Source of the DNA: an uncultured Ruminococcus sp.
GTDB taxonomy: Bacteria > Bacillota > Clostridia > Oscillospirales > Acutalibacteraceae
DNA length: 45,465 nt
Direction: 5' to 3'
Assembly (NCBI GenBank): GCA_934476515.1
Contig: CAKSNZ010000014.1
Location: 1-45,465, forward strand
Position numbers and translations under genes: made by a program. Shown here piece by piece: positions 1,021 to 33,470 of this stretch; position 1 is the stretch's first letter, and the number at the start of each line of letters is the position of its first letter. A model generated the notes under the pieces. It made no database searches and was not told the origin of the DNA. It saw nothing but the letters and a program-made list of their open reading frames with translations.

Positions 1021-3293
1021 TACTTTACTTCTTTTCTAATAATCTTTGCAGCCTCAACCATATTCTTTAGGCTCTTTTCTGTTTCAGGGATACCTCTTGT
1101 TTTTAGACCACAGTCTGGATTAACCCATAGCTTTTCTTTATCAATCTTAGTTAGCATTAAATGAAGTGCATTGACAATTTCTTCAACTGATGGAACTCTT
1201 GGTGAATGAATATCATATACACCCGGACCTACTTCTGTTTCAAAGTTATGTTCCTTTAATGAAGTTAAAATCTGCAAATCTGAACGAGATGCCTCAAATG
1301 TAATAACATCAGCATCCATATCATCAATAGCAGGGATAATATCTGTAAATTCACTATAGCACATATGTGTGTGAATCTGAGTATCTGCTTTAACTCCACT
1401 ATGAGTTAGTCTAAATGCAGGAATTGCAAAATTCAAATATTCTTTCTGCCAATCAGACTTACGAAGTGGTAGCTTTTCTCTTAAAGCTGCCTCATCAATT
1501 TGGATAATTTTGATACCGTTCTTTTCAAGGTCAAGAACTTCATCACGAATAGCAAGTGCAATCTGTGAGATAGAGTCTTTAATAGAAATATCTTCTCTTG
1601 GGAATGACCAGTTTAGGATAGTTACAGGGCCTGTAAGCATACCTTTCATAATCTTATTTGTTAATGACTGAGCATATACTGACCAATCAACTGTAATTGG
1701 CTTTTCTCGATATACATCACCCCAGATAATTGGAGGCTTAACACATCTTGTACCATATGACTGTACCCATGCTTTTTCTGTAAATAGGAAACCTCCAAGT
1801 GCTTCACCAAAGTACTCTACCATATCATTTCTTTCATACTCGCCATGAACAAGTACATCAAGACCGATTTCTTCTTGAAATTTAACACATTCTGCAATTT
1901 TCTTTTTGTTGAAATCTACATATTCTTCCTTAGAGATTTCACCTTTCTTAAATGCTGAACGATTAACCTTTACTTCCTTAGTCTGTGGAAATGAACCGAT
2001 AGTTGTTGTTGGGAATAACGGTAGGTTAAGTTCAACCTTTTGAAGTTTCTGCCTTTCTGCTCTTGCAGGTAGTCTTGTATAGTCCTTATCTGTAACACTG
2101 GATAGTCTGTCATGTACAGCCTGATTAAAGCAATCTCTCTGTTCTGTAAATAACTTCTTATTATTCTTGTATGTTTCTTCATTTGCATAATCACTTAAGT
2201 CAGCTAATAATTTTAACTCTGATAGTTCAACCAGCTTTTCTTCTGCAAATGAGAAGTGAGAAAGGTACTTAGCATCTAGCTTTGTTTCATGCTTTAGAGT
2301 ATAAGGAACATGAAGCAATGAACAAGATGTTGAAAGCACTGTGTTAATACCCTTATTCTTCAAATCATTAAGAGTTTCAAGTGTCTTTTCATAATGGTTC
2401 TTCCAGATATTTTTACCATTTACAAGACCTGCAAATAAAACCTTATCACTTGGGAAGCTAAACTTATTAACTAGGTTATATGTTTCTTTACCCTCAATAA
2501 AGTCAAGACCAATACCATCAAATGGCTTGTTAATTAAATCAGCATATACATCTCTTACATCACCAAAGTATGTTTGTAGAAGGACTTTGCAATTCTGCTT
2601 AGTTGAAAGAACTTCACCGTAAATCTTGTTAAATAATGCTAGGTCATCACTTGTCATATCCTTTACAAGTGATGGTTCATCAATCTGTAACCACTTAACA
2701 TCATTTTCTTCACACTTAGTAACTAAGTCCTTATAAGCAGTAATAACTACATCTACAAAATCAGCACAAGTTTTGTTGCCTGTAAATCTACATAGCTTTA
2801 GTAAAGTATATGGACCGATAACAACCGGTTTTGTTTCGATACCTAAAGACTTTGCTTCATTGTATTCATCAAATAGTTTGTTGCCAACTAGCTTGATTTC
2901 TGTATCATCATCAACTTCAGGAACAATGTAGTGATAGTTAGTGTTAAACCACTTTTTCATTGCAAGTGCTTTAACATCACCTGAATTATCCTGAAAACCA
3001 CGAGCCATAGCAAAGTAAGTATCAAGGTTAGAAAGGTTAAGGTCCTTGTATCTGTTAGGGATGATATTAAATAATACTGCTGTATCTAAAGTCATATCAT
3101 AAAAAGAAAAATCATTGCTTGAAATAAATTCAATACCGGAATTCTTCTGTGTATTCCAATGAATTTTACGCAAAGACTTTGCAATATCCAAAAGTTCAAC
3201 TGAAGTGATTTCTTTTCTGAAATACTTTTCAGAAGCAAACTTAAGTTCTCTTAATGTACCGATTCGAGGGTATCCAATAACTGATGTTTTCAT
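1020..3293 (-). CDS. metE: Cobalamin-independent methionine synthase
   Basis: Transfers the methyl group of 5-methyl-THF-polyglutamate to homocysteine without B12. About 757 residues, the family's usual length, with two homologous barrels: an N-terminal one starting IGYPRIG and a C-terminal catalytic one. Zinc ligands are visible as His and Cys in HTHMCYSEF, Glu in FEASRS, and Cys near residue 728 in [11 protein letters not shown] start at the ATG at 3293 because GGAG at 3300-3303 sits correctly in front of it; an in-frame TTG at 3305 would place that ribosome site inside the gene. It is the first gene of the operon with metF. The MET-box-like palindrome at 3396-3420 is the likely control site, and no SAM riboswitch or T-box is visible in this leader. 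Confidence 0.97.
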
Positions 3294-3395
3294 AATATTC
3301 TCCAAATCAAAATTTATATTTTACCGATATTTATATCGCTTGGTGTTAATTATATAACAATTACTTTGATTTGTATAATATATATAATTATAAGT

Positions 3396-7888: not shown

Positions 7889-8821
7889 CTACTTAACACA
7901 TAAATATGCAAAATATCCGGCATAACAAAGTAACATTAATATACCACAAGGTCGTCTCAATTCTTTATGTTTAATTGTACCTAACCAAAGAATTATACCT
8001 GCACCGATAGCTACACAAGTATCAATTAAGAACTTGCTTTCAAATGGCACATCACAGATAAGACCTGTAATACCGATTACAAATAATATATTAAAGATAT
8101 TACTGCCTACTATATTACCGATAGCTATACCAACATTACCTTTCTTTGCTGCTGTAATTGAAGTTACAAGTTCAGGTAGTGAGGTACCAAATGCAACAAT
8201 AGTTAAGCCGATAAATCTATCACTCATACCAAAGAACTTTGCTATGTAAGATGCACCATCTACTGCAAAGTCACTGCCCTTTACTACCATAATGCCACCT
8301 ATAACCATAAGCAATAGGCATTTCCAAACCGGAAAATCTTTTGCAGTTTCTTCTTCGGTAGGTGAGCCCTTTTTAGCCATATAAAATAGATAGCCAAGAA
8401 AAGCAACAAATAGAATACATAGAATTACACTTTCAAAGAAAGTAATCTTTGAATCTGTATAACCGAATATCATCATTACAACAGTAATACCTATCATAAA
8501 GGGTATTTCATAATATAAAGTTGATTTTTGTATAGCAACACTTGTTATAACTGAGGTAATACCTAGAATAATCAAAATATTCATAATGTTACTACCTACA
8601 ACATTACCTACTGTAATTCCGGCATTACCGTTTATTGCAGCAGTAATACTAACTGCTGCCTCAGGCATACTTGTACCCATTGCTACAATGGTAAGCCCTA
8701 CTATTAACTGAGGTATTCCCATTTTCTTTGCAATACTTGCAGCACCTTCTACAAACCAATCAGCACCCTTTACGAGTAACAGGAAACCAACCAGCAATAA
8801 AAGCACTTGTAATATCATCAT
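7889..8821 (-). CDS. Calcium/sodium antiporter (CaCA family, YrbG-like)
   Basis: Membrane exchanger of about ten helices built from two inverted repeats. Each repeat carries the alpha motif: GTSMPEAAVS with GNVVGSNIMN in the first, and GTSLPELVTS with GNIVGSNIFN in the second. These acidic and asparagine-containing motifs are the ion-binding core of the K+-dependent Na+/Ca2+ exchanger branch. The 310-residue length is usual for bacterial members. The start is preceded by GAGGAAC; a second ATG follows directly and would serve equally well. It is a single-gene unit lying between two metal-transport operons on the other strand. Substrate (Ca2+ versus another cation) cannot be read from the sequence. 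Confidence 0.93.
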   Translation of the reverse strand: MMILQVLLLLVGFLLLVKGADWFVEGAASIAKKMGIPQLIVGLTIVAMGTSMPEAAVSITAAINGNAGITVGNVVGSNIMNILIILGITSVITSVAIQKSTLYYEIPFMIGITVVMMIFGYTDSKITFFESVILCILFVAFLGYLFYMAKKGSPTEEETAKDFPVWKCLLLMVIGGIMVVKGSDFAVDGASYIAKFFGMSDRFIGLTIVAFGTSLPELVTSITAAKKGNVGIAIGNIVGSNIFNILFVIGITGLICDVPFESKFLIDTCVAIGAGIILWLGTIKHKELRRPCGILMLLCYAGYFAYLCVK

Positions 8822-17789: not shown

Positions 17790-18476
17790 TCAGTTGTTAT
17801 CATACCTTTCTTTTAATTTTTCCAAAGCCTTTTTCTCTATTCTTGAAACATATGACCTAGATATATTCATAATTGATGATACTTCTCTTTGAGTTAGTGG
17901 TTTACTTCCATTAAGTCCATATCTCAGATTGATAATTTGTAATTCTCTTTTAGTTAAAGTTTCTGTTAGGTACTTATTAATCTTTTGGAGATTTAGCTTT
18001 TTATCAAGGTTATCTGCAAAATCATCATCAATAGAAAGTAAATCCATTAATTTTAGAGTGTTACCGTCTTTATCAATATCAACTGCATCTTCTAAAGAAA
18101 CATTTTGGGAGGACTTTTTCAGATTTCTAAAGTGCATTAGAATTTCATTTTCAATACACCTTGATGCATAACTGCTGAGTTTTATATTTTTGTCCATATC
18201 AAATGTATTTATGGCCTTTATAAGTCCTATTGTACCGATTGAAACTAAATCATCTTGGTCAACATTTACTGCATAATATTTCTTGATAATATGTGCCACT
18301 AATCGCAAATTATGTTCTACTAAAATATTTCTTGCCTTAATATCACCATTCTTAGACTTTAGTAGATATTCCTTTTCTTTATCTTCTGACAAAGGTTTAG
18401 GGAATTTTCCGTTACCACATATGTGAAGAATAAAAGTAAAAATATACTGACTTAAAAAATTTATAAATTCCAGCAC
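17790..18476 (-). CDS. sigK: RNA polymerase sporulation sigma factor, SigK-type
   Basis: Late mother-cell sigma factor of the SigE/SigK group, 228 residues. After a hydrophobic leader (FINFLSQYIFTFILHI, residues 4-19) comes PLSEDKEKEYL, then region 2 (RNILVEHNLRLVAHIIKKYY, DDLVSIGTIGLIKAINTFD) and region 4 with the helix-turn-helix LTQREVSSIMNISRSYVSRI. The leader matches the pro-sequence that a membrane protease removes in SigK. The frame is continuous, so no skin-type element interrupts it. Translation starts at a GTG seven bases after GGAGG. SigE is the alternative; the KPLSEDKEKEYL start and length favour SigK. A possible self-recognised promoter lies at 18506-18533. Confidence 0.9.
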   Translation of the reverse strand: MLEFINFLSQYIFTFILHICGNGKFPKPLSEDKEKEYLLKSKNGDIKARNILVEHNLRLVAHIIKKYYAVNVDQDDLVSIGTIGLIKAINTFDMDKNIKLSSYASRCIENEILMHFRNLKKSSQNVSLEDAVDIDKDGNTLKLMDLLSIDDDFADNLDKKLNLQKINKYLTETLTKRELQIINLRYGLNGSKPLTQREVSSIMNISRSYVSRIEKKALEKLKERYDNN

Positions 18477-18533: not shown

Positions 18534-18566
18534 ACATAAAATTTATATTGTAATTATATAGAAATA

Positions 18567-18589
18567 GCTGACACCTAAGTGGTATCAGC
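18567..18589 (-). terminator. Hairpin after the 97-codon gene
   Basis: Nine-base arms (GCTGATACC and GGTGTCAGC on the minus strand, one G-T pair) around a 5-base loop are followed by TATTTCTAT. The T-run is poor, so termination here is plausible but not certain. Confidence 0.5.
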
Positions 18590-18610
18590 CTTTCTTATTA
18601 CATATTGATT

Positions 18611-18904
18611 TTACTTTGATTGTTGTAACACTTTGCTATAATCAATCTTAATAAGTGGTTCATCTCCGATTTTGTCTGCTGACTGATATGCAATATGGCC
18701 TACAGTACCAACATAATTAATTGTGTTGTCCCTATTAACTGCCATAATATCGGATAGTTTTCTTTCTGTTGGCTTTTTACAGTCACTAAAAGTGAAACCT
18801 TCATTTTCGGCATCAATCATAAACTGATTTGCTACTTCCTTATCCTTTAGATAAACATAGATTCTTCCTTCATTTTCTGCTAATAAGTTTTTAATTCTTG
18901 ACAT
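18611..18904 (-). CDS. Unknown 97-residue protein under SAM riboswitch control
   Basis: I do not recognise this family. The 97-residue product is soluble and mixed alpha/beta in appearance, with no signal peptide, membrane helix or cysteine pair. Noticeable segments are GRIYVYLKDKEVANQF, DAENEGFTFSDCKKPTE and a GTVGHIAYQS patch. I start at the ATG at 18904 because AGGGAGAA lies six bases before it. A longer frame reaching 18958 begins next to the riboswitch terminator and has no ribosome site. The gene is alone between its riboswitch and a hairpin. Control by SAM implies a job in methionine, SAM, cysteine or methylation economy, but the sequence does not say which. A nucleic-acid or metabolite-binding role is equally open. 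Confidence 0.85.
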   Translation of the reverse strand: MSRIKNLLAENEGRIYVYLKDKEVANQFMIDAENEGFTFSDCKKPTERKLSDIMAVNRDNTINYVGTVGHIAYQSADKIGDEPLIKIDYSKVLQQSK

Positions 18905-18945
18905 AAAAAATTCTCCCTTTGAGTAATAATTCCACAAAGAGAGGT

Positions 18946-18979
18946 AAAAAAATAACACCCATCGTTACCGATAGATGTT
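18946..18979 (-). terminator. Riboswitch expression-platform terminator
   Basis: An 11-bp stem (AACAUCUAUCG with CGAUGGGUGUU, G-U pairs allowed) and the loop GUAA are followed by AUUUUUUU. The 5' arm and its flank (AUCGGU) can instead pair with ACCGAU in the 3' strand of aptamer helix P1, giving an antiterminator. Confidence 0.85.
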
Positions 18980-19088
18980 GACCAGTCTAAATATATACAC
19001 ACCATCGGTTAAGCTTTACCACCTTGCCTTTTGGTAGGTTGGTGTGCGATCATAGGGCTTACTCCCTCACGCACTCTTTATGGTAGTT
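18980..19088 (-). promoter_or_regulatory. SAM-I-class riboswitch aptamer
   Basis: The RNA (minus strand) has P1 (ACCAU with AUGGU), then AAGAG, P2 (GUGCG to CGCAC, 19044-19074) enclosing GAGGGA and GCCCUAUGA, then ACCAACC leading into P3 (ACC-U-ACC with GGUGGU), and J3/4. These blocks follow the SAM-I core (AAGAG, GAGGGA, GCCCGAUGA, CAACC, AAGGUGCUAA). The P2-loop bases UAAGC pair exactly with GCUUA in J3/4, whereas classic SAM-I uses CUGG with CCAG, so the pseudoknot is preserved by covariation. The P4 hairpin is absent or minimal, which points to a SAM-I/SAM-IV-variant architecture. Binding SAM should stabilise P1 and favour the terminator, turning the 97-codon gene off. Confidence 0.85.
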
Positions 19089-19090
19089 TT

Positions 19091-19119
19091 ATAATAACAC
19101 TTAATAATTTATATGTCAA
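19091..19119 (-). promoter_or_regulatory. Promoter of the riboswitch leader
   Basis: TTGACA (19114-19119), a 17-base spacer and TATTAT (19091-19096) on the minus strand. The predicted transcript starts about at 19085-19089, just in front of the P1 strand of the aptamer. Confidence 0.8.
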
Positions 19120-19143
19120 GAAATTTATAATAATTTTTCAAAG

Positions 19144-19174
19144 TAAAACTGACACCACATAGTGTGATGTCAGT
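19144..19174 (-). terminator. Terminator after the giant LRR gene
   Basis: Arms ACTGACA and TGTCAGT extend through CACA/TGTG to a tight loop and are followed by TTTTAC on the minus strand, 17 bases beyond the stop codon. Confidence 0.82.
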
Positions 19175-19190
19175 TATTACTTTTATTAGA

Positions 19191-22100
19191 TTAATTCACC
19201 TTTACTTTACACTTTAGAGTTTCACCATTTGTTTTAACGATGATTACTGCATTACCTTTTTTCTTAGCTAGGATTTTGCCGTATTTATTTACGGTAACAA
19301 TCTTAGTATTGGAAGAAGTGAATTTTGCAATTCCCACTTTACCCATAACTTTCAGTGTATAGGATTTATTTTTCTTTAGTGTAAGTGAAGTTTTGTTTAG
19401 CTTAGGTTTCTTCACTACAAGTGTCATAGTTTTAGATACCTTATTATTTGTAACGGTAATTTTAACTGTACCTAACTTATAAGTAGTGATTACACCCTTA
19501 CTGTTTACCTTTGCAATTTTAGTATTGCTACACTTATAAGTAGTTTTACCAACAGGATTTTTAATTGTAGCTTTTACAGTAGTTTTAGCCTTTACATAAA
19601 CAGATTGTTTAGCTTTCTTTAGAGTAATAGTTGTTTTCTTTAACTTTGGAACAACCTTTTGGGCTACAATCACCTTACCACAAGTTGAACAATGAGAACC
19701 CTCAGTTAAACCTGTATGTGTATATGTAGGTTTTACTGCCTTATCCTTAACTACTGTATGACCTAGCTTTGGAACTGTCTTTTGTGGTGTGATTACTTCG
19801 CCACATACTAAACAATGCTTACCCTCTGTTAGACCATTCTTTTCACAAGTCGGTTTAACTTCTTTATCTATTACAACTGTATGAGCTATCTTTTCAATAG
19901 TTTTCTCAGAAACTACCTTATTACAAATAGAACATACATATTCCATTTTACCTGTTTCTTTACAAGTAGCTTCTTTAAGCACTTTCCAAGTACCGTTATG
20001 TAGAACTGTAACTGTTGTAGTAACTGTTTTACCATTTGAAGCAATGGTTAATGTTTGTTCACCGGCTTTTGTATTGTCAAAACCTGTTACTGTGTAATCA
20101 TCAACATATGAAGAAGAACCATCTGTATAAACTGCAACCAGCTTTAAACCGTCATTACAGAATGTTTCACCCTCAAAATACTGTTTTACAGAGAAATCAG
20201 TTGTGATAACCAGTTTTTCAACCTTATTTTCTACAACATTAATGGTATAAGTTGCTGAGATATTATTTGAAGTTGTTGCAGTAATAACTGTTTTACCACT
20301 CTTTATGAATGATACTACACCATTGTTATTAACTGTGGCTACTGAATTATTACTTGAAGTCCATTTAACTGACTTATTAGAAGTGTTATTTGGTGTAAAG
20401 TTGGCTATCAGCTTTGTTTTTTCTCCAACATAGAAAGTATCTTTATTTTCTGTATATGGAGAAGTTACATTAATTGAAGTTGCTTTTACTTCTGATTTAC
20501 CGGTGAATTTAGCAGTAATTTCTGCGAATTCAGTCATTTCAAGAATATAGGTAGGGTCAGAACTTACCTTTTCACCGTTTACATACCAACCTGCAAAAAT
20601 TGAGTCAGCTGACTTTTCTGCTGTAAGTGCTACATCTTCACCAACAAAGTAGTAACCGTCACTACTTGTCTGTGTAACATTACCATCACCCTCTGTAACA
20701 ATAGTTAAAGGTAATTTCTTATTAACCTTAAGAACTGTTGGTTCGGAAGTCATTACTTCTAGGTCTTTATTTTCAAGAATTCTGATTGATAGATAATCCG
20801 AATTACTTAAACCTGTAACAGTAGCATCAACCTTATTGTTAATTGTTACTGCCTTTGACCAATCAGCTTTTGCAGTTAATGAAGAAACCGTTGCTACTTG
20901 ATATGAATAGTTTTCATTTAGGTTAGTTAGATAATACTTACCATCTGAATATTTAACTGAAACATTTTTGCTAACTGACTTTTTAGCATAAACATTTACT
21001 GTTGTAATCTTACCGGACATATTATTGCTACCGGACTTTAGTCTAACTCTTAGGATAGTTCTTACTGTCTTAGGATATACATTGATATATCCGTCACAAG
21101 TATGCCATACACCATCTTCTGTACAATATTCATACTTATCATCAAACTTTTCTACTGTACGAAGATTGTTATAATCAATAGTTACTGTTGGTGCTGATGG
21201 CTGAGTGATACTTTCTTTTCTTTCAATATCAAAGATGCTATCTCTTGAAGATAAGATTTTTTCATAAACATAATCAAATACTTCTTCGATATCCTTTGCA
21301 TTAATACCGAAGTAATCATTTACTTCTTTAACAATCTTTGCATCAAATTCTTTATCTGTATGAATAATATTTGAATTATCACTGTTAATATACTTATAGA
21401 ATAGTTGTTCACCCAGTAGTCTAATCTGACAAAGTGACTTCATTTCATATAAAGTATATTCAGCTAATGAGTCGTCATTTAAAGAAGAATCATCAGAAAC
21501 AATATCCTTAAATAAACCTGTTGAAAGGAGATTACCGTTTTTATTCTTATAACTGTTAGAAATTGTGTTATAACCTGATTCTACTGCCATTGAAATATAG
21601 TTTGCAACTGCAAATGAATCTGCTGCTTCATACATATCACCAATACCAAAGGCTAAATCTACTACTTGGAATGTGGCTGAAAGTGCTTCATACCAAATTG
21701 CCAACTTACCAAGTGACTTAGAAATAGCTTCATCAAGTGCAATATTTGCAACTGAATTTGCAGTAGCTGAGGCGAAATTCTTAGCAAGTTCTAATCTAAA
21801 GTTATATGAGTCATTTAGTAACTGTGACTTTAGCTTTTTAGCCTCATCAGCAATTAGCTTTTTGTAGTTTGTATTAGCTGACTTATACATTAATGAATTA
21901 AGCTGAGAGTCTTTCATAAAATCTCTAAAGCGTTCTTCATCAGAATAATAACTGATTAAGGTATTTAGTAGTAATGTAGCTTGTTCAACAGATGCTTGAG
22001 CCTTTAACTGAGTATAAAGGTAACGAGAAGTAACTGCATCATTATAAGCATTAATAGGATTTTCTACTAATAATTCAACTGCCATACCACCGTATTCACT

Positions 22101-25100
22101 TACACCTGTGATACCCTTAAATAATGCTGAGTTTTCACTATAGCCTAGGTTATCACCAACTAGCTTTTTAAACGTAGTAACTGATATACCACCAACTGCT
22201 GATAGTCCAAGTTTTCCATAGAATGTATTAATAATTGAATCTTCATCAGTTGAGTTTTCTAAATTACCTGCTAATTCGTTTATTGTATTAGTGCTATCTA
22301 ATGCATTACTGATAATAGCAGTTACCTTTTTTTTAGTTGTATTATCACCAAAGTCAAAGGAATCACAAGAACTTTTTATAACAGAAAGAGCATTCTTAAC
22401 TGCACTTACATACTGGTCACTTACTAATCCGTTAATGTTTTGTTCTGAATTATCATCGGTAATCATTTTAACAAGTAATTCATCAATTAACTTCTTCTTA
22501 TCATCCTTTGTAAGTGTTTCAAAATCAAGTGTTAATGCAAGTTTTAGGCTATTATAAACACCCTCACCAAGAGAATTAGCCATATCACTGTTTTTAACAT
22601 ATAGGAAGTTGTTACCGTTTAATAGATAATCAGCTGATGACTTTCTGCTATTATCTTCTTTAGAAGTTAAGTCATTCGCCTTTTCTTTAGAATTAGCAAA
22701 ACTATAATAGTTAAAGTCTATCGGTGTTACTGTTACACCTCCACCGATACCGTCAAGCACCTTATATGATGCTGACTTAAACTGAGCAATATCATCATAG
22801 TTAATTGCGTTATATGCTATATAATCAAAATAGATTGATTCATTAGGAGCAAGAGTATTTATATTTGTAGAAACACTGCCATCCTTTGAGTACTTATAAT
22901 CAACATACTTACTTTGATTATCTGCTGATACAGTTCTAACATTCATTAGTCTTGCATCTACTGAAAAATCAGGAGAATAATTTTCATCTGATGGGTCAAG
23001 ACCAAGTGCTGTTGAAGTAATATTCTTTACAATATTATTAAAGTCAAGAGAAGGGCAAATTGCATCAATATTACCAACATTCTTTAGCCCGATATTAAAG
23101 TAGAAAGCATTGTTTCTGATTTCTTTACATACTTCAACATTAAACATTATGTTTGTCATACCGTAAACATCAATAGGTTCATCGGTTTTGAAAGAAGTCT
23201 TAACTGTCTCTTCAAACTCACTTAGCACACCGGAATAATCTGCTGACAAGTCATAAGAACCTACCTTATCACCACGAACAATCCATGACAGTGTCTTAGT
23301 TTCTTGACCTACAAGTTTATCAAACTTAACATTCTTACTGTTACACCATTCACCGGAAACATTATCCATTAGGTGAAGTTCATCAGGTACATTTAGGTTC
23401 ACTTCATTATTTGTTAGGACAAAGTTTTTAGTTGCGTTATTTACAATATGAAGTTTTACATCAAAGAATTCTTTTAGCGTCTTTGCAGTAGCATCAAACT
23501 GTAGAATTGCAATAAACTCTTTATTTTCTTTGTTTGGAATAAAGCTAATACCACTAATAGTAGAATTTCCGTTACCGTTAGGTTTGTTTTCGTCAGGTTT
23601 AGAGCCACCGGAATTAGAAACAGTATATTTTATAATTTTGTTATCATTTCTAATATACTTAATTGGAATTTCTTTTTCACCATATCTAACAGTAACTTCA
23701 ACAGAATAAACATTTTGGTTAGCTGGGTCATATACATCGATACCTGCATCAACGATTTCGTTAAATGTCATTCTTGTTACTTCAAAAGTACCGGTAACAA
23801 GTTCTTCCTTAATCATAGTTAGAGTAATTTCTCTAGTTGCATTTGTAAGGGCTGTTACATTCTTTCTAACAGGTAAATATCCTGACTTGTAACAACCTAC
23901 TAATGTATCACCACCGGCAAGGTTGTATGAAGAATAACCGTTACTATCGGTATAAATAACCTTTTGGTTATCTTCACCTAGATTAAAGTAAACAGGTGCT
24001 TGAGGAATAATCTTGCCCTTTTCATCAACTACTTTAACTTTTACTGTACCGATTGCAGTTCTTTCTTTAACTGTTACTGTGAAAGTTGCAGTTGACTGTT
24101 CACCAAATGAGTCTGTTACAGTTAGCTTAACTTCATATGTACCTGCTAATCTATAACTTTTAATAGGTTGAATATCATCAGAATAAGTGCCGTCACCAAA
24201 ATCCCAATGATATGAAACAATACTGTCGTCATCTGTTGAAGAATAACCGTCAAAATATTCTTCAACTCCCTTTTCCATTACTTCATTACCGTTGATTCTG
24301 GCAACAGGTTTTTCGTTATTTTCTTTATCTCCAACAGTTTTGTATTCTACTGTATTTGATAAAGTTGAGGAGTAGTTACCTGAATCATCATAAGTTTCCA
24401 CTTTGTAAGTATATTTTGAATCAGACTTAGAACTGATAGTATCATAAAATTCATATGAATGGTTAGAAGAAACTTGTCTTGAACCTAAGTATGTTTCTCT
24501 ACCCTTTTCATCAATTCTGTATATCTTAAAGCCTGATAGGTCACTGTCTTTATTATCTGACCAATTAAGAGTTACTGTGTTTTTCTTAATTTCTGCTTTT
24601 AGGTTATTAATTGATGGTGCTAAGTCATCATATGTATAAGTATAAACTTTGCTATATTCTGACTTTAGACCACTTGTATCTGTACAATATACTCTAACAT
24701 AAACTTTCTTTGAGTTAGTAATACCTGATAAAGGAATATCAGCTGATACTGTTTTATAGTCAGCATTTATGTTCTTCACTGTACTAAATGTTTTGTAATT
24801 ATCTTCACCCTCAATTTTATATTCAAAAGTAACTGTATCTAATAAGTAATTATCCTTTACTAAAGCACTTACTGTATGGAACTGTTTACTGATTGAAGAA
24901 TTGCTATCAGGAGAGATACTAATAACTTCAGGAGAAATTATATCCTCAGCAAGTTTTGCACTTACTGTCTGTGAAAATTCACTAACATTGCCTACTGTAT
25001 CTGTAACGGCAATTTTGTAATAATATACTGTGCCACTCTTTGCAGTAGTATCGTAATAATTAATCTGCTTTAATCCACTTGAAAGTAGGATAAATCCACT

Positions 25101-28100
25101 ATCCTTTTCAGTTGAACGATATACCGAATAAGTTGACAAGTCTTCTTCTGAACCTTGTAACCATGTTAGATAAATTGCATTATCTGTACTTGTAGCTACT
25201 AAATTTGTAGGTGAAGATGGTGCAGTTTTGTCAATCATATATTCAACAAATGGTGCATTGCTTGAAGTATCACTAACATTACCGGCAAAGTCGGTTGCAA
25301 CTGCTCTTACATAAATACTACCGTCATTAAACTCATCAACATTTACATTAAATGAATATGTTGCAGTTTTTGATACTGTTGTAAATTCTTTATTTGATAG
25401 AGATTTCCAAGTTTTTAGGTCAGTTGAAATTTGAATTTCTATTGACTTAATACCGTAGTCGTCCCCGGCTGTTGCACTAAAGTTAATTACTGAATTTCTT
25501 CTACCGGCTGATGGTGATAATGAAGTAACTACAGGTGCAGTTGTATCATCAGTAGTTGTAACTTCTAATGTATCGGAATATCCACCAATGTTACCGATTT
25601 TATCAACACCGGCTACACGATAAATATGTTTTGTATTTGGTGTTAAGTTTTCAATAACACAACCGTTATCGGTGATTTTATCTTTCACTACCTTAAAGTT
25701 ACCGTTTTCCAACTTTTCTTCTAAGACATAACTTGCTAAATCTTCAGCCTTTGGTTGATCCCATTTTAAAGTAACTTTTGTTGAAAGAACTTTACTAATA
25801 GCAAAATCTGTTACCTTGTCAGGTCCTTGATTATCAATCTTGTACTTAACAATCTTAGGTTCACTTTCGTTACCCTGTAGGTCATATACAACAGCTTTAA
25901 CAGAGATTTCTTTATCTGTTAATTCTTTAGTATTGAAAGCAAATGTGAATGGAGAATTCTTCACTGTATCAATTAAAGTCCAATTTTCTTCATCTGTACT
26001 ATAGTATAGCTTTGCACTACCTAACATTAGATTGTCTGTTGCTTCAACTGTAATCTTCTGTACATTACCGATATAGCTATAACTTGATGGGGTTATTGAA
26101 GTAATTACAGGCGGTTCTTCATCAATACCACGCATTGCAATAGTTTCATTAGACTTTTCGCTGACAATACCAAAACTGTTTTCTGTAATTACATAGTAAG
26201 TATATAGTCTGTTTTTCTTTACATTTGTATCAGTATAAGAAAGAATATCTCTACCCTTAATAGTAGTTAATAGAGAGAAATCTGTATCAACTTCGGATTT
26301 TCTATAAATTTTATAAATCTTACTATCTACTTCACTGGACTTAGACCATGAAATTTTTATGTCATTATAATCACCTAAAGCAACAACATTCTGGATTTTT
26401 TCAGGTACACTTTTATCTACACGAATTGTACCTTCCTTTTCTACTGTTACATTGTCAATATCTGTATAAGTAAATAGAACTTTATATTCACCGTTTGGAA
26501 TATCTTCAACATCTAAATCAAAGTTAAAGTAAATTTTGTCGCTGATGACTGCATTTGACTTACCGATAAATATTTTATTATTATCCTTGTTAAAGTAATA
26601 TAGTTTACCTAAAACTGCATTACCATCTAAATCAATACCGTTATTTTCATTCTTTGCACTTACAGTAATTGAACCGTCTTGTACAGAAACAGTATTTTGA
26701 CTATGCGGAGTAGTAATATCAAGAACATCCATTGAATGTGGAGTTACTGATAATTTAGTACCTCTTGTTTTATCTCCGGCATCATTTACACCGTAAACAG
26801 TATATTCATAGGTTTTATTTGGTGTTAAATCATAATCAATAAACTGATTATTCTTTGGTGTTGCAATCTGTTCGCCATCTCTAGTGATAATATAGCTTGT
26901 TACAGTATCATTTTGGTGCTTAGACCATGTAAGTTTTACTGTTTTGCTATATACATTAGAAGCAGTTAGATTTCTAACACCACACTTCATAGTATCTGTT
27001 GAGAATACTGCGTTGTTCTTGTACTTATCAAACTTATCTACAAAATTATCCTTAGTTTCTACAGGAACAAAAATTGTTTCAAGAGAATTCATTGAATAGA
27101 ATAAATCTTCAAAAGGACAATTTGGAACTTTAGTACCTGTAAACATAAATTCCTTAACAGAAGCCATTTCGTTAAATGGGTTATAGTAATAATAATTACT
27201 TGTACCGATATTTCTGATATTTGTACCCAGTACAACACTTTCAACATTTTTACAATTTCTAAATGCATTATCGTAAATATCTGTTACTAAATCAGGGATT
27301 CTGATTTCTCCCTTAATAGAAGAACAATTTTCAAAAGCATACCTTGAAATTGCAGTTAGTTTTTCTGATAGAGTTAATGATGTAATACTACTACAGTTTT
27401 GGAATGAACCTTCACCCATTGAAGTTACGCTATCAGGAATAATAAGTTCACCTGTAAGGCTTGTACAATTTTGGAACGCATATGTACCGATAGTTTCTAC
27501 TGAACCTAAGTCAAGTGAAGTTAAAGCCTTAGCATTTCTAAATGCATAAGAACCGATAGATATACCATTCTTGTTACCCTCAATCTTTAGAGTAACAATA
27601 CTACTGTCACCGTCAAAAGCACTACTACCGATAGAAATTACTGAACTTGGTACTCTCAGGTCACCACTTATATCAGTACAATTTGCAAAAGCTGATGAAC
27701 CGATAGTAGTAAGGCTATTATTTAAGTTTACACTTTCAAGAGAAGTACAACCATAAAATGCTCTGCTACCGATAGTTTCAAGATTTTTATTTACTTCATA
27801 TGATGTTAGATTAATACAATTTTCAAAAGCATAAGAAGAAATTGACTTTAGATTTTCATTGAAAATCACTTTTTCAATGGTACTGTTATTTTGGAATGCT
27901 GAAATTTCAATAGTTTCAACATTTTCAGGAATTGTTACCACTGTATCATTACCTTGATATAGTAATAACTCATTCTTTTCATTTACAATAAAGTCATCTT
28001 TGTAACCTAAAACCTTGTATCTTGCATTGTTAATATATGCTGAATATGTATAACCAAATGACTTGTATGCCTTTAGAGTTACATATACAGTTTGTAGTCT

Positions 28101-31100
28101 ATTCATTGAATAGAAAATATCGTTAAATGATGCTGATGGTAATGTATCACCTTTAAATGTAAATTCCTTTACAGAATTCATACCGTTGAACGGGTTGTAG
28201 TAGTAATAATTACTGCTACCGATAGTTTGAACATTCTTACCTAAAGTAACTGTTTCAACACTTGAACAATTATTAAATGCATGATTATCAATAATAGTTA
28301 CAGAATCAGGAACTTCAATACTTTCTAAACTTTTACAACCATCAAAAGTGTATTCACTAATTCTAGTTAGAGAATCAGGAATTTCAACATTAGTAATACT
28401 TGAACAGTTTTGGAATGCACCTGTTGCAACTGTTATAACACTGGTTGGGATAACTAATGAATCAATAATATTGCTACAATTTCTAAATGCATATTCACCA
28501 ATTGTTTTTAGAGTATCATTAAACTGTACTTTTGTATTGATACCTTTACAGTTATCAAATGCATACTTACCGATTGAAGTAACATTACCTAGTGAAATTG
28601 ACTTAATAGAAGTATCATTTTGGAATGAATAGTCACCGATTTTAATTTCTTCATTGTTACTTGCAATTTCAACAGAAGTTAAGGAAGAACAATTAGCGAA
28701 AGCATAATTACCTACACTTCTTGTGTTTTCAGAAATTTTTAATACACCTGAAAGTTTTGTACAACCATAGAAAGCACTATTACCAATAGAACTAATTAAG
28801 TTATTGAAAATAACTGTATCTAGATTTGTACAACTATAAAAAGCTGATTGGTTAATTTTCTTAATATTCTGAGAGAAAGTTACCTTTTTGATATTTGTGT
28901 TATTCTTAAATGCTGAGTCACCGATTTCTGTTACATTATCAGGAATTACAACATCTGTGTCATTACCTGAATACTGAAGTAGCACACCATCTTTAATAAC
29001 AAAGTCACTGTCTGAAATCATAACAATTCTTGCATTATTGATATATGGTGAAAATCTGGTTACATAATCACTATAACCATCAACCGGTACATAGACAGTT
29101 TCTAGGTTATTCATATATTGGAATAAATCTGCATATGGAGTTGTAGGTACTTTTTCGCTATTAAATGTAATCTTCTTTACACTAGTCATATTATAAAATG
29201 GATTATAGTAATAACCATTTGATGTACCTAGTTGAGTTAAACCTTTACCCAGTTCAATTTCTGTTACAGCTGAACAATTTTCAAAAGCACAATTTTCTAT
29301 TATTTTTATATTATCAGGAATAGTTATTTTCTTTAATGATGTACAATTAGAAAATGTTTCATAGTTGATTGTATCAAGGCTTTTGGAAAATTCTATTTCT
29401 GTAATACTCTTACAATATGAAAAAGCATTATTCTTAATTGTTGTTACACTATCAGGTATAGTTAGTTTACCGGTTAATGAAGTACAATTATTAAATGCAT
29501 ATGCACCTATTGATGTTACATTTCCTAAATCTAATGTTTTGATACCGATTGCATTTTGGAAGGAATAATTACCGATAGTTGTACCATCTTCATTACCTTT
29601 AATAGTAACTGAAGTAATTTTGTTATCTTCTGCAAAAGCATTATCACCAATAGTTTTTACTGATGATGGGATAAGTAAATCATCAGTTAATGAATCGCAT
29701 TTATAGAAAGCATAGTTACCGATTGTTTCTACTGAAATTGGAATTGTAATTTCTGTTAAAGCAGTACAACAACTAAAAGCATAATCACCGATAGTAGTGA
29801 TTTTGTCAGTTAAATTAATACTCTTTAATGATGTACAATCACTAAATGCATTTAGTCCTAAATAAGTTAAGTTATCATTAAGTACAACATCAGTTAGATT
29901 TTTACAACCTAAAAATGCTCTAGAAGATACCTTTTCTACATCCTTTGAGAAAGTAACCTTAGTAACAACTTTATTATTTTGGAAGGCTGATGGTCCAATC
30001 TCTGTGATACCATTAGGAATTGTTACTTCCGGATTATCACCTTGATATGAAAGAAGAACGTTGTCTTTAACTACAAATTCATCTTTATTATTTACTAGTA
30101 CAAAATTTGCATTATTTATATATGGTGCATATTTAGCTACATAATCACTATAACCATCAACCGGTACATAGACAGTTTCTAGGTTATTCATAAATTGGAA
30201 TAAATCTAAATATGGGGTATTAGGTACTTTTTCAGTATTAAAAGTAATCTTCTTTACACTAGTCATATTATAAAATGGATTATAGTAATAACCATTTGAT
30301 GTACCTAGTTGAGTTAAGCCTTTACCCAGTTCAATTTCTGTTACAGCTGAACAATTTTCAAAAGCACAATTTTCTATTGTTTTTATATTATCAGGAATAG
30401 TTAATTTCTTTAATGATGTACAATTAGCAAATGATTCATGGCCTATCACTTCTAAATTTTTAGAAAATTCTATCTCATTAATATTTTTACAACTAGAAAA
30501 AGCATAACTATTAAGTGTTTTTACACTGTCCGGAATAGTTAACTTACCACTTAATGAAGTACAATTATTAAATGCATTTGTACCGATTGAAGTTACATTT
30601 CCTAAATCTAATGTTTTGATACCGGTTGCATTTTGGAAAGAATAATTACCGATAGTTGTACCCTCTTCATTACCTTTAATAGTAACTGATGTGATTTTGT
30701 TATCTTCTGTAAAAGCATAATCACCGATAGTTTTTACTGATGATGGAATTACTAATTCATTTGATAATGAAGTACATTTATAGAATGCATAGTTACCGAT
30801 TGTTTCCACTGAATTTGGAATTGTAATTTCTGTTAAAGCAGTACAACCATTAAATGCATAATTATCGATTGTAGTGATTTTGTCAGTTAGTTTTACACTC
30901 TTAAGTGCAGTACAACCACTAAATACAGATTTACCGATTTTAGAAACATTTTCTCCAATAGTAATTGAAGTGATTTTCTTGTTATTCTTAAATGCTGATT
31001 GGCTGATTTCTTCTACTGTACCTGGAATAGTTACATCAGTAGCTTCACCTGTATATTGAAGCAGTACACCATCTGAAACAACAAATTCATCATTTGAACT

Positions 31101-33170
31101 CATTAAAATTCTACCGTTGTTGATATATGGTGTAAATCTTTCAACATAGTCATTATATGAAACTGCCGGTACATAGACAGTTTCTAGGTTGTTCATATAT
31201 TCAAAAGTATCAGCACATGGAGTTGTTGGTACTTTTTCACTATTAAATGTAATCTTCTTTACACCTGACATATTATAGAATGGATTATAGTAATAACCAT
31301 TTGATGTACCTAGTTGAGTTAAACCTTTACCCAGTTCAATTTCTGTTACAGCTGAACAATTTTCAAAAGCACAATTTTCTATTGTTTTTATATTATCAGG
31401 AATAGTTATTTTCTTTAAAGATGTACAATTAGCAAATGATTCATAGCCTATCACTTCTAAGTTTTTAGAAAATTCTATCTCATTAATATTTTTGCAACTA
31501 GAAAAAGCATAACTATTAAGTGTTTTTACACTGTCCGGAATAGTTAACTTACCACTTAATGAAGCACAATTATTAAATGCATTTGTACCTATTGATGTTA
31601 CATTTCCTAAATTAAGAGAAGATGCATTACTTACATTTTGGAAAGAATAATTACCGATAGTTGTGCCATTAGAATTACCCTTAATATCAATAGATGGAAT
31701 TTTGTTGTCCTCAGCAAAGGCATAATTACCGATAGAAGTAACTGATGATGGAATTACTAAGTCATTTGATAGTGATGTACACTTATAAAATGAATAGTCA
31801 CCTATTGTTTCTACTGAATTAGAGATTGTGATTTCTTTCAAAGAAGTACAACCATTAAAAGCAGAATTTGAAATTGTCTTTAAATCTTTATTTAATGTAA
31901 CATTCTTAAGGTTTGTACAACCCATAAATGCACAATCTGAAATCTTTTCAACATTACTGTTTAGTTCCACAGTTTTGATAGAAGTATTATTTCTAAATGC
32001 TGATGGACCAATTTCTGTTACATCACTTGGAATAACAACATTTGCATCATTACCTTGATATAACTTAAGTACACCATCTTCAATAATGAAATCTGTATCA
32101 TCGTTTAATAAAACAAACTTGGCATTATTAATGTAAGAAGAAAATCTTTCTAAATAATCACTATATGACTTAGCAGGAACATAAACTGTTTCAAGGTTAT
32201 TCATATATTGAAATAAATCTAAATATGGGGTATTAGGTACTTTTTCACTATTAAAAGTAATCTTCTTTACACTAGTCATATTATAAAATGGATTATAGTA
32301 ATAACCATTTGATGTACCTAGTTGGGTTAAACCTTTACCTAGTTCAATTTCTGTTACAGCTGAACAATTTTCAAAAGCACAATTTTCTATTGTTTTTACA
32401 TTATCAGGAATTATAATTTTCTTTAGTGATGTACAATTAGAAAATGATTCATAGTTGATTTTTTCAACTGAACTTGGGATGGTAACTTCAGGTGTAACAC
32501 TTGTAAAATTATAAAAAGCATAGTTACCTATTGAAGTAATACCATCAAATAATTTTATTGACTTAGCTGTTGATTTATAATTTTTCCAAGGTTGGTTATC
32601 AGAATTATAATTTTTAATTTCACCATCACCGTAAACATAAAGTGAGCTTGTGAGATTGTTGTATCTGTAACTTATGTTATCGTCTTGTCCGGACTCTGAC
32701 ACTTTATCTGAAGCAAATCTCTTCTTATAGTTCATATCATTTTCTGTTACAAACTTGTCAGCATCAGAATTTCGTTCCACAATATAAACACAATCATCAT
32801 TTGATGTTAAAGTGTTTGTGTCAATATTCTTTAGTGTAGCAGGTAGGCTGATATACTGAGCCTTTAGGCAATTTTTAAAAGCACCTTGACCTATGGTTGT
32901 AACACCATTAGGTATTTCAATACCTACAATACTGTTATCATTCTTGAATGTAGTAGATGAAATTTCTGTTACACTGTGTCCGTCAATTTCAGAAGGAATA
33001 TCCACAAACAAATCACTACCGTTATAGCCGGTAATTATTGCGTTATCCTCAGACAAAGCATAAGTAAATTCATCATTAATATTATCTTGATTTTCTGCAC
33101 CAAATACCGTCATAGGCATTGATGAGAAAACAACAAGAATGATAAGCATAATGGATAATACTTTTTTCAT
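19191..33170 (-). CDS. Giant secreted BspA-like leucine-rich-repeat surface protein
   Basis: A 4659-residue exported protein. I start at the ATG at 33170 (AAGGAGAG before it), giving a signal peptide that ends near VFGA-E. Approximate order: LRR_5 repeats in six super-repeats (30-2060); five FN3 domains alternating with four Ig-like domains (2070-2945); a PKD domain with DFGDGTYSD (2950-3035); a Cna-B/carboxypeptidase-regulatory-like domain (3040-3130); an unrecognised beta-rich region (3130-3490); an unrecognised helical region (3490-3980); a short region before an InlB/divergent-repeat domain with GWYVNGEKV (4160-4225); BIG2 and Ig-like domains (4230-4385); three Cys-motif modules (4388-4510); and two BIG2-like domains at the C-terminus. 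There is no LPxTG sorting motif or terminal helix, so attachment is non-covalent or it is released. It is likely to bind host or microbial polymers or cells; the ligand is unknown. Unlike most window genes, it is a single 14-kb monocistronic unit. Confidence 0.93.
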   Translation of the reverse strand: MKKVLSIMLIILVVFSSMPMTVFGAENQDNINDEFTYALSEDNAIITGYNGSDLFVDIPSEIDGHSVTEISSTTFKNDNSIVGIEIPNGVTTIGQGAFKNCLKAQYISLPATLKNIDTNTLTSNDDCVYIVERNSDADKFVTENDMNYKKRFASDKVSESGQDDNISYRYNNLTSSLYVYGDGEIKNYNSDNQPWKNYKSTAKSIKLFDGITSIGNYAFYNFTSVTPEVTIPSSVEKINYESFSNCTSLKKIIIPDNVKTIENCAFENCSAVTEIELGKGLTQLGTSNGYYYNPFYNMTSVKKITFNSEKVPNTPYLDLFQYMNNLETVYVPAKSYSDYLERFSSYINNAKFVLLNDDTDFIIEDGVLKLYQGNDANVVIPSDVTEIGPSAFRNNTSIKTVELNSNVEKISDCAFMGCTNLKNVTLNKDLKTISNSAFNGCTSLKEITISNSVETIGDYSFYKCTSLSNDLVIPSSVTSIGNYAFAEDNKIPSIDIKGNSNGTTIGNYSFQNVSNASSLNLGNVTSIGTNAFNNCASLSGKLTIPDSVKTLNSYAFSSCKNINEIEFSKNLEVIGYESFANCTSLKKITIPDNIKTIENCAFENCSAVTEIELGKGLTQLGTSNGYYYNPFYNMSGVKKITFNSEKVPTTPCADTFEYMNNLETVYVPAVSYNDYVERFTPYINNGRILMSSNDEFVVSDGVLLQYTGEATDVTIPGTVEEISQSAFKNNKKITSITIGENVSKIGKSVFSGCTALKSVKLTDKITTIDNYAFNGCTALTEITIPNSVETIGNYAFYKCTSLSNELVIPSSVKTIGDYAFTEDNKITSVTIKGNEEGTTIGNYSFQNATGIKTLDLGNVTSIGTNAFNNCTSLSGKLTIPDSVKTLNSYAFSSCKNINEIEFSKNLEVIGHESFANCTSLKKLTIPDNIKTIENCAFENCSAVTEIELGKGLTQLGTSNGYYYNPFYNMTSVKKITFNTEKVPNTPYLDLFQFMNNLETVYVPVDGYSDYVAKYAPYINNANFVLVNNKDEFVVKDNVLLSYQGDNPEVTIPNGITEIGPSAFQNNKVVTKVTFSKDVEKVSSRAFLGCKNLTDVVLNDNLTYLGLNAFSDCTSLKSINLTDKITTIGDYAFSCCTALTEITIPISVETIGNYAFYKCDSLTDDLLIPSSVKTIGDNAFAEDNKITSVTIKGNEDGTTIGNYSFQNAIGIKTLDLGNVTSIGAYAFNNCTSLTGKLTIPDSVTTIKNNAFSYCKSITEIEFSKSLDTINYETFSNCTSLKKITIPDNIKIIENCAFENCSAVTEIELGKGLTQLGTSNGYYYNPFYNMTSVKKITFNSEKVPTTPYADLFQYMNNLETVYVPVDGYSDYVTRFSPYINNARIVMISDSDFVIKDGVLLQYSGNDTDVVIPDNVTEIGDSAFKNNTNIKKVTFSQNIKKINQSAFYSCTNLDTVIFNNLISSIGNSAFYGCTKLSGVLKISENTRSVGNYAFANCSSLTSVEIASNNEEIKIGDYSFQNDTSIKSISLGNVTSIGKYAFDNCKGINTKVQFNDTLKTIGEYAFRNCSNIIDSLVIPTSVITVATGAFQNCSSITNVEIPDSLTRISEYTFDGCKSLESIEVPDSVTIIDNHAFNNCSSVETVTLGKNVQTIGSSNYYYYNPFNGMNSVKEFTFKGDTLPSASFNDIFYSMNRLQTVYVTLKAYKSFGYTYSAYINNARYKVLGYKDDFIVNEKNELLLYQGNDTVVTIPENVETIEISAFQNNSTIEKVIFNENLKSISSYAFENCINLTSYEVNKNLETIGSRAFYGCTSLESVNLNNSLTTIGSSAFANCTDISGDLRVPSSVISIGSSAFDGDSSIVTLKIEGNKNGISIGSYAFRNAKALTSLDLGSVETIGTYAFQNCTSLTGELIIPDSVTSMGEGSFQNCSSITSLTLSEKLTAISRYAFENCSSIKGEIRIPDLVTDIYDNAFRNCKNVESVVLGTNIRNIGTSNYYYYNPFNEMASVKEFMFTGTKVPNCPFEDLFYSMNSLETIFVPVETKDNFVDKFDKYKNNAVFSTDTMKCGVRNLTASNVYSKTVKLTWSKHQNDTVTSYIITRDGEQIATPKNNQFIDYDLTPNKTYEYTVYGVNDAGDKTRGTKLSVTPHSMDVLDITTPHSQNTVSVQDGSITVSAKNENNGIDLDGNAVLGKLYYFNKDNNKIFIGKSNAVISDKIYFNFDLDVEDIPNGEYKVLFTYTDIDNVTVEKEGTIRVDKSVPEKIQNVVALGDYNDIKISWSKSSEVDSKIYKIYRKSEVDTDFSLLTTIKGRDILSYTDTNVKKNRLYTYYVITENSFGIVSEKSNETIAMRGIDEEPPVITSITPSSYSYIGNVQKITVEATDNLMLGSAKLYYSTDEENWTLIDTVKNSPFTFAFNTKELTDKEISVKAVVYDLQGNESEPKIVKYKIDNQGPDKVTDFAISKVLSTKVTLKWDQPKAEDLASYVLEEKLENGNFKVVKDKITDNGCVIENLTPNTKHIYRVAGVDKIGNIGGYSDTLEVTTTDDTTAPVVTSLSPSAGRRNSVINFSATAGDDYGIKSIEIQISTDLKTWKSLSNKEFTTVSKTATYSFNVNVDEFNDGSIYVRAVATDFAGNVSDTSSNAPFVEYMIDKTAPSSPTNLVATSTDNAIYLTWLQGSEEDLSTYSVYRSTEKDSGFILLSSGLKQINYYDTTAKSGTVYYYKIAVTDTVGNVSEFSQTVSAKLAEDIISPEVISISPDSNSSISKQFHTVSALVKDNYLLDTVTFEYKIEGEDNYKTFSTVKNINADYKTVSADIPLSGITNSKKVYVRVYCTDTSGLKSEYSKVYTYTYDDLAPSINNLKAEIKKNTVTLNWSDNKDSDLSGFKIYRIDEKGRETYLGSRQVSSNHSYEFYDTISSKSDSKYTYKVETYDDSGNYSSTLSNTVEYKTVGDKENNEKPVARINGNEVMEKGVEEYFDGYSSTDDDSIVSYHWDFGDGTYSDDIQPIKSYRLAGTYEVKLTVTDSFGEQSTATFTVTVKERTAIGTVKVKVVDEKGKIIPQAPVYFNLGEDNQKVIYTDSNGYSSYNLAGGDTLVGCYKSGYLPVRKNVTALTNATREITLTMIKEELVTGTFEVTRMTFNEIVDAGIDVYDPANQNVYSVEVTVRYGEKEIPIKYIRNDNKIIKYTVSNSGGSKPDENKPNGNGNSTISGISFIPNKENKEFIAILQFDATAKTLKEFFDVKLHIVNNATKNFVLTNNEVNLNVPDELHLMDNVSGEWCNSKNVKFDKLVGQETKTLSWIVRGDKVGSYDLSADYSGVLSEFEETVKTSFKTDEPIDVYGMTNIMFNVEVCKEIRNNAFYFNIGLKNVGNIDAICPSLDFNNIVKNITSTALGLDPSDENYSPDFSVDARLMNVRTVSADNQSKYVDYKYSKDGSVSTNINTLAPNESIYFDYIAYNAINYDDIAQFKSASYKVLDGIGGGVTVTPIDFNYYSFANSKEKANDLTSKEDNSRKSSADYLLNGNNFLYVKNSDMANSLGEGVYNSLKLALTLDFETLTKDDKKKLIDELLVKMITDDNSEQNINGLVSDQYVSAVKNALSVIKSSCDSFDFGDNTTKKKVTAIISNALDSTNTINELAGNLENSTDEDSIINTFYGKLGLSAVGGISVTTFKKLVGDNLGYSENSALFKGITGVSEYGGMAVELLVENPINAYNDAVTSRYLYTQLKAQASVEQATLLLNTLISYYSDEERFRDFMKDSQLNSLMYKSANTNYKKLIADEAKKLKSQLLNDSYNFRLELAKNFASATANSVANIALDEAISKSLGKLAIWYEALSATFQVVDLAFGIGDMYEAADSFAVANYISMAVESGYNTISNSYKNKNGNLLSTGLFKDIVSDDSSLNDDSLAEYTLYEMKSLCQIRLLGEQLFYKYINSDNSNIIHTDKEFDAKIVKEVNDYFGINAKDIEEVFDYVYEKILSSRDSIFDIERKESITQPSAPTVTIDYNNLRTVEKFDDKYEYCTEDGVWHTCDGYINVYPKTVRTILRVRLKSGSNNMSGKITTVNVYAKKSVSKNVSVKYSDGKYYLTNLNENYSYQVATVSSLTAKADWSKAVTINNKVDATVTGLSNSDYLSIRILENKDLEVMTSEPTVLKVNKKLPLTIVTEGDGNVTQTSSDGYYFVGEDVALTAEKSADSIFAGWYVNGEKVSSDPTYILEMTEFAEITAKFTGKSEVKATSINVTSPYTENKDTFYVGEKTKLIANFTPNNTSNKSVKWTSSNNSVATVNNNGVVSFIKSGKTVITATTSNNISATYTINVVENKVEKLVITTDFSVKQYFEGETFCNDGLKLVAVYTDGSSSYVDDYTVTGFDNTKAGEQTLTIASNGKTVTTTVTVLHNGTWKVLKEATCKETGKMEYVCSICNKVVSEKTIEKIAHTVVIDKEVKPTCEKNGLTEGKHCLVCGEVITPQKTVPKLGHTVVKDKAVKPTYTHTGLTEGSHCSTCGKVIVAQKVVPKLKKTTITLKKAKQSVYVKAKTTVKATIKNPVGKTTYKCSNTKIAKVNSKGVITTYKLGTVKITVTNNKVSKTMTLVVKKPKLNKTSLTLKKNKSYTLKVMGKVGIAKFTSSNTKIVTVNKYGKILAKKKGNAVIIVKTNGETLKCKVKVN
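27180..32320 (-). repeat. Six-copy ~1-kb super-repeat inside the giant LRR gene
   Basis: A marker block encoding YYYNPF recurs at about 32292, 31284, 30278, 29201, 28193 and 27180, giving periods of 1008, 1006, 1077, 1008 and 1013 bp. Each period carries about fourteen 23-residue LRR_5 units plus a non-LRR insert (NLETVYVP ... YINNA ... DGVLLQYxG). The first four copies are nearly identical at DNA level around the marker (for example 32225-32400 against 30205-30380), while the last two are diverged (GSSNYYYYNPFN). Confidence 0.9.
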
Positions 33171-33470
33171 GTTCTCTCTCCTTTTATAACTATAGAATGT
33201 AGTTATAAATATTTTCATATTATAATAATTACCAATAAATTATATCGTTATTTTGTTAATAAAATATGAACAAATTAGAATATTTGTGAACTTTGTTAAT
33301 AATTCTACTATTTGCACATCTTTTTATAAATATATACTTTACAATTATATCTTTCTGTCAAATTATTAACATAAGAATAAAGAATTGAATTAAAGATATA
33401 TATATTTATTTGTTTTTATACTGTCTTTCTTATTATTTATCAATATGTTATAATTAATTTGGTGATAAAT
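33171..33470. other. Divergent intergenic region, giant LRR gene / LysR gene
   Basis: No gene is visible in these 300 very AT-rich bases. On the minus strand TTGACA lies at 33356-33361 with -10 candidates AGTATA or TATATA 17 to 19 bases on, which would give the giant gene a leader of about 140 bases. TATAAT at 33449-33454 is a -10 candidate for the LysR gene. An 11-base direct repeat, TTTGTTAATAA, occurs at 33252-33262 and 33292-33302. Between the copies lies the inverted repeat ACAAAT-N6-ATTTGT (33270-33287). Confidence 0.5.

Follow-up and report, generated by a model that had tools for sequence, protein, structure and literature searches.

The stretch of DNA considered here (the window) spans 45,465 nucleotides of contig CAKSNZ010000014.1 from an uncultured Ruminococcus sp. 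(assembly GCA_934476515.1). Its minus strand harbors a small cassette in which, as read from the sequence, a promoter is followed by an S-adenosylmethionine (SAM) riboswitch of the SAM-I class (also named S-box), an antiterminator and a terminator that exclude each other, the gene of a 97-residue protein and a second terminator (Table 1); a leader of the same class was found at all 20 loci collected by searching with the protein. The gene family is shared by phages and gut Clostridia, and the riboswitch, which is located directly before the gene, is predicted to turn it ON at low SAM. Terminator-like hairpins flank the cassette, so that the gene is probably transcribed on its own.

Table 1. 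Features of the cassette and neighboring genes, in window coordinates
Feature	Position	Strand	Basis or remark
Promoter TTGACA-N17-TATTAT	19119-19091	minus	upstream TG (extended -10); 11/12 consensus matches
SAM-I (S-box) aptamer RF00162, P1-P3 and pseudoknot	18999-19086	minus	covariance model
Antiterminator, ACCGAUG (19009-19003) with UAUCGGU (18973-18967)	18967-19009	minus	pairing
Intrinsic terminator hairpin, 11 bp	18954-18979	minus	followed by seven U, 18952-18946
Post-terminator lock element	18931-18952	minus	predicted pairing with the aptamer 5' strand
Predicted Shine-Dalgarno-sequestering hairpin	18913-18943	minus	arms 18943-18935 and 18921-18913; 5' arm common with the lock element
97-residue protein, uncharacterized family	18611-18904	minus	open reading frame
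Intrinsic terminator 3' of the gene	18566-18590	minus	predicted single-gene transcript
Terminator-like hairpin 3' of the giant gene upstream	19147-19175	minus	separates that gene from the cassette
4675-residue open reading frame, upstream	19191-33218	minus	BspA-like leucine-rich repeats (by eye)
SigK-like sigma factor, downstream	17790-18476	minus	GTG start; 278.9 bits vs SigK equivalog cut-off 298.65
metE	1020-3305	minus	~15 kb from the cassette
metF	157-1020	minus	~15 kb from the cassette

A preliminary description of the window, made from the sequence alone, assigned the leader to the SAM-I class, and the Rfam comparison that it proposed bears this assignment out: RF00162 matches at full length (model positions 1-108) with 51.8 bits vs a cut-off of 44.4 (E 3.7e-09), and this is the sole Rfam match above the gathering score in the whole window. 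One lower-scoring match to a model of the same clan overlaps it, and a search of positions 18900-19150 at E<=10 yielded this one RF00162 match and no second SAM aptamer. An S-box core pattern, fitted partly to the window leader, matches once in the window and in none of 100 shuffles. The conserved blocks AAGAG, GAGGGA, GCCCUAUGA, CAACC and GGUGGUAA, listed in the preliminary description, are all present, and the core blocks are invariant across 21 leaders. The pseudoknot formed by different bases (UAAGC with GCUUA) is real, being compensated at alignment columns 26/110, which hold U-A in the window and C-G in 19 of the 21 leaders. Both the alternative pairing and the terminator with its run of U were also found; the antiterminator takes the 3' strand of P1, i.e., the expression platform is exclusive with P1, and 91.9% of its cells are paired across leaders. 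In the 21 leaders the aptamer, pseudoknot and terminator covary, with 53 two-sided changed cells vs 15.5 in shuffles and with 0/500 shuffles on all five measures; the helices, terminator included, have 96.0% of cells paired and 15 pairs with a two-sided change. The promoter is located where it had been proposed. Promoter-like sites in the leader region as such are not above chance (3 found vs 4.7 expected from shuffles), and many homologous leaders are preceded by similar sequences (by eye).

The window leader thus has the aptamer core, the pseudoknot and the antiterminator/terminator logic in common with SAM-I (RF00162). The family leaders differ from canonical S-boxes in that most of them have one base more between UGA and CAACC, and in their target, which is an uncharacterized phage-shared gene rather than a methionine, cysteine or SAM gene. 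A core pattern with the wider spacing (N8) fits 15/21 family leaders and 0/31 canonical S-boxes.

The association between leader and gene was analyzed in both directions. The protein-first set consists of 20 loci besides the window, from five bacterial genomes (L001, the metagenome-assembled genome Lapin-001 bin9, and L003-L006), one phage record (L007, Ruminococcus phage NatCom_28274) and 14 viral contigs from IMG/VR (L011-L024), where L007, L011 and L012 are near-copies. An RF00162 match above cut-off is found upstream on the same strand in 20/20 of these loci, immediately upstream in 19, which strongly supports that proteins of this family repeatedly follow SAM riboswitches, a point that the preliminary description had proposed to check. 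From the aptamer 5' end to the start codon there are 156-194 nt in 19 loci; the exception is L021, where the gap between aptamer end and gene is ~960 nt and includes two small open reading frames (ORFs). In the RNA-first direction, the N8 pattern, itself fitted in part to family leaders, identified 30 viral contigs, of which 21 contain a family ORF starting 21-133 nt after the pattern. Because that pattern fits no canonical S-box, a second scan was made with canonical spacing (N7; fits 25/31 canonical S-boxes and 2/21 family leaders), in which 11/14 viral contigs contain a family ORF at the same distance. When the two scans are combined, a family member is located just downstream in 32/44 viral contigs (33/44 if the L021 contig is included), corresponding to 21/33 distinct leaders. 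The two search directions overlap, as 13 of the 14 viral contigs in the protein-first set recur among the 44. Of the other viral leaders, that of L042 is followed by a MetK-like ORF (by eye) and several are followed by other ORFs; the leaders of L106 and L111 resemble canonical ones.

The protein was first described as unrecognized, and this holds: neither Pfam, NCBIfam nor PDB gave a match, and the best PHROGs match has an E of only 0.012. Of 716 candidates from a profile search of ~5.8 billion proteins, 299 are homologues at E<=0.001, i.e., the family is common, and a single cluster, 95% identical to the window protein, represents 595 sequences. No Pfam domain is seen among the 120 homologues listed, and no Pfam family reaches its curated cut-off for the window protein and 57 members tested. 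None of the PADLOC models (PADLOC-DB of 2023) matched any of 57 members at E<=1. An AlphaFold model based on 57 rows (pLDDT 94.5, pTM 0.86) predicts an alpha/beta fold in the order helix-strand-helix-strand-strand-helix-strand-helix, for which no matching solved structure was found. A Foldseek comparison with BFVD, which contains viral proteins only and is silent on cellular relatives, gave 119 matches at E<=10 and none at E<=0.001 (best 0.0053, probability 1.00, TMq 0.55). The named matches among the 50 listed are nearly all uncharacterized phage proteins; small ones such as A0A8S5SUX2 and A0A516MFD3 have a similar predicted fold (probability 0.98-1.00, TMq 0.53-0.55), at E values of only 0.005-0.02 and 16-17% identity. 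The N-termini of four over-long database predictions (P0004, P0025, P0092 and P0106) resemble a translated riboswitch leader (by eye), and these entries are probably further homologues that carry the leader.

A single-sequence search found carriers of the family in 5/391 genomes of the class of the L001 genome, that genome included. Carriers numbered 2/28 and 1/95 in the orders of two carriers; a sample of the phylum yielded 2/398, both already found. RF00162 itself is common in the phylum (145/159). The five carrier genomes contain 1, 1, 2, 1 and 1 matches, which in 4/5 are found only before the family gene; the extra S-box, the second in G143, precedes a metK-like ORF (by eye). In the two carrier orders any RF00162 match was seen in at least 3/28 and at least 3/95 genomes (lower bounds, since the candidates scored per genome were capped at 92 and 35). 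Three of these matches precede the family gene, two precede other ORFs (L067 and L068, see below) and one, L069, is weak and below cut-off. With no other S-box found in four of the five carriers and hardly any in the two orders, a SAM-I regulon that the gene could join is usually absent. To call the gene a new SAM-regulon member is therefore too narrow and partly misleading, also since the family is shared with phages. Within the window no methionine gene is found beside the 97-residue protein gene, and metE and metF show no RF00162 match, as had been noted for metE. Phage hallmarks, i.e., terminase, integrase and helicases, are seen at family loci, and the four host copies with longer flanks have chromosomal surroundings, each different (by eye). 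A tree of the family requires four changes between host and viral labels, two of them forced by supported branches, and the hosts never formed one clade in 200 bootstrap trees. Two S-box-poor genomes contain single phage-type S-boxes before other genes: an N-formylglutamate-amidohydrolase-like ORF (L067 in G010, by eye) and a 70-residue ORF (L068 in G452).

Downstream of the terminator is an element, absent from the preliminary description, that we refer to as a putative lock. Its core, CUCUUUGUGG (18941-18932), is predicted to pair with CCAUAAAGAG (19083-19074). Stretches like CUCUUUGUGG are located 3' of the terminator and are complementary to both the Shine-Dalgarno (SD) region and the aptamer 5' strand; most family leaders have such an element, unlike canonical SAM-I. 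In a local test, the SD hairpin reached p<=0.05 in 16/24 leaders and the duplex with the aptamer 5' strand in 21/24. A wider test, nearly uniform across leaders, gave p<=0.05 for the lock pairing in 15/21 phage-type leaders (median z -2.76) vs 5/31 canonical S-boxes (median z -0.39), where the pairing mostly involves terminator-like arms (by eye). The pairing between a leader's own 5' strand and 3' element is on average stronger than that of swapped partners (-20.4 vs -16.8 kcal/mol; 0/20,000 permutations, in which the relatedness of the leaders is retained). This also held for the 18 family leaders taken by themselves, and own partners remained better when the SD-like core was made identical (1/20,000). 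On fixed alignment columns the covariation score of the lock was reached in 1/500 shuffles, which provides moderate support. In the predicted ensembles, the median SD exposure was 0.42 in the full transcript vs 0.09 (23 leaders), and 13 of the 23 had a more exposed SD in the full transcript than in the isolated 3' segment. Phage-type SAM-I leaders also precede a second type of phage protein, with 138 residues in L031 (from 8360-8530 onwards) and 142 in L105 (from 8770-8808 onwards), the two being similar by eye; lock-like pairing was seen by test in L031 and by eye only in L105.

The arrangement suggests a switch in which one aptamer would act on both transcription and translation. With SAM bound, P1 would close and transcription would end. 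At low SAM, the 3' strand of P1 would instead build the antiterminator, such that the gene is transcribed, and the freed aptamer 5' strand could then capture the post-terminator element, thereby opening the SD. This capture would also prevent the aptamer from refolding around SAM, i.e., the lock would be one-way, and in any read-through transcripts with SAM bound the post-terminator element would hide the SD. Such a switch is predicted to be spread by phages, which may carry the entire cassette as a unit into bacteria most of which are devoid of an S-box regulon. We consider this explanation likely. Its least certain part is the role of the protein, which might be a small binding partner shielding the host or a resident phage during a collapse of the SAM pool. 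To a further-reaching version we give somewhat less than an even chance: phages of gut Clostridia would spread a self-contained SAM-shortage cassette, controlled by a one-aptamer, two-level SAM-I subtype with a 5'-strand lock, where one protein family, deployed upon SAM collapse, is the main phage output and S-box-less bacteria keep the cassette.

A number of observations weigh against the proposed switch and its spread. On fixed columns the lock is only 73.8% paired, and one of its five covariation measures, pairs with a two-sided change, is not above shuffles (130/500). Six of the 21 leaders do not reach p<=0.05 in the wider lock test, clearly in L006, L019 and L021 and narrowly in L016, L020 and L023; in L006 and L019 the own partner ranks last or nearly last, and the predicted ensembles of L004, L006, L023 and L042 lack the lock. 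The window's own SD is predicted to be poorly exposed both ways (0.06 vs 0.00). For the antiterminator, one of the five covariation measures is not above shuffles (74/500). The S-box counts of the carrier genomes may be too low, as genome completeness was not given. The host and viral labels are somewhat clustered on the tree (28-30/500 shuffles as low) and branch support is weak (2/23 starred), so the tree does not fix the direction of transfer.

The lock could be incidental, i.e., a hairpin that merely hides the SD from stray upstream transcripts and resembles the aptamer since AAAGAG is similar to AAAGGAG. The SD-like core of the complementarity and the local hairpin result fit this explanation, which we nevertheless consider rather unlikely: the pairing extends into the P1 and P2 strands, with means of 2.9, 5.1 and 9.9 pairs in its three parts (some of the 9.9 being purines against the U-run), own partners prevail even with identical cores, and ordinary S-boxes rarely show the lock. 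That the RNA is a decayed S-box, or one with a changed ligand, is very improbable. Its 51.8 bits are indeed low compared to ~89-106 for the canonical matches (best of those listed), and the UGA-CAACC spacing differs, but the invariant core blocks and covarying helices argue against this explanation.

Two alternatives concern the function of the gene. S-boxes mostly control methionine and SAM genes, and phages can carry host metabolic genes. The gene may accordingly belong to an ordinary SAM regulon, where the protein aids the host's methionine or SAM supply and the phage copies are host-derived auxiliary metabolic genes. The MetK-like ORF of L042 and the metK-like ORF after the second S-box of G143 agree with this proposal, but no methionine gene was seen among the identified neighbors (20 by profile, some by eye; a minority of all neighbors), metE and metF of the window are distant, and no other S-box was found in 4/5 carriers, which makes this explanation unlikely. 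Another possibility is an alarm, in which the switch would sense that a rival phage (with a SAM lyase) or a defense system destroys SAM, and the protein would block superinfection. PMC7877911 and PMC8406200 describe degradation of the SAM pool by phage SAM lyases, the gene is predicted to be ON at low SAM, and a neighboring gene in five phage loci (cluster c2, see below) includes one superinfection exclusion match. That neighbor was, however, not seen at other loci and only one of its members was identified by profile, no observation links the 97-residue protein itself to exclusion, and it has no PADLOC match; we therefore regard an alarm of this kind as quite doubtful. The model of a phage-spread, two-level switch raises a related, testable question, namely why phages and their hosts would need to sense a fall in SAM.

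Control by SAM at two levels is described, in the passages of PMC9481103 that concern it, for SAM-II/SAM-V tandem riboswitches, which act first on transcription and then on translation, as proposed here for the window leader. The tandem comprises two aptamers, whereas the window leader has one and its translational step is predicted to occur by recapture of its own 5' strand. Riboswitches are described as rare in phages (PMC9004378); examples of phage-carried (candidate) regulatory RNAs are the glutamine riboswitch of phage Melnitz (passages of PMC9004378) and the manA/wcaG motif RNAs of cyanophages (passages of PMC2864571), which are similar to the present case in being carried by phages and differ in RNA class and target. 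A one-aptamer, two-level arrangement does not appear in the passages of PMC9004378, PMC2864571 and PMC9481103 considered here. Nor was a report of phage-borne SAM-I riboswitches, this protein family or such a lock recognized in a literature search that left subscription journals and preprints mostly outside. If the model is correct, SAM-I riboswitches would gain a phage-borne regulon with an uncharacterized output, as well as a novel mode of irreversible, two-level action by a single aptamer.

The phage loci contain additional neighbors of the family gene. A gene of cluster c2 is located nearby in L013, L016, L017, L019 and L021, and the one in L017 is a match to GP17 superinfection exclusion (PF17420, E 1.3e-26). 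In L007 the family gene is convergent with genes for a C5-cytosine DNA methylase and a ParB-N/N6 methylase (by profile; L007:5287-8758, minus strand), both of which use SAM, and clusters c5 and c6 of this phage are also found in L011, L012 and L022. The viral contig L023 harbors a gut-2 small RNA (RF02990, 53.9 bits; L023:5503-5550, plus strand) ~4 kb from the family gene.
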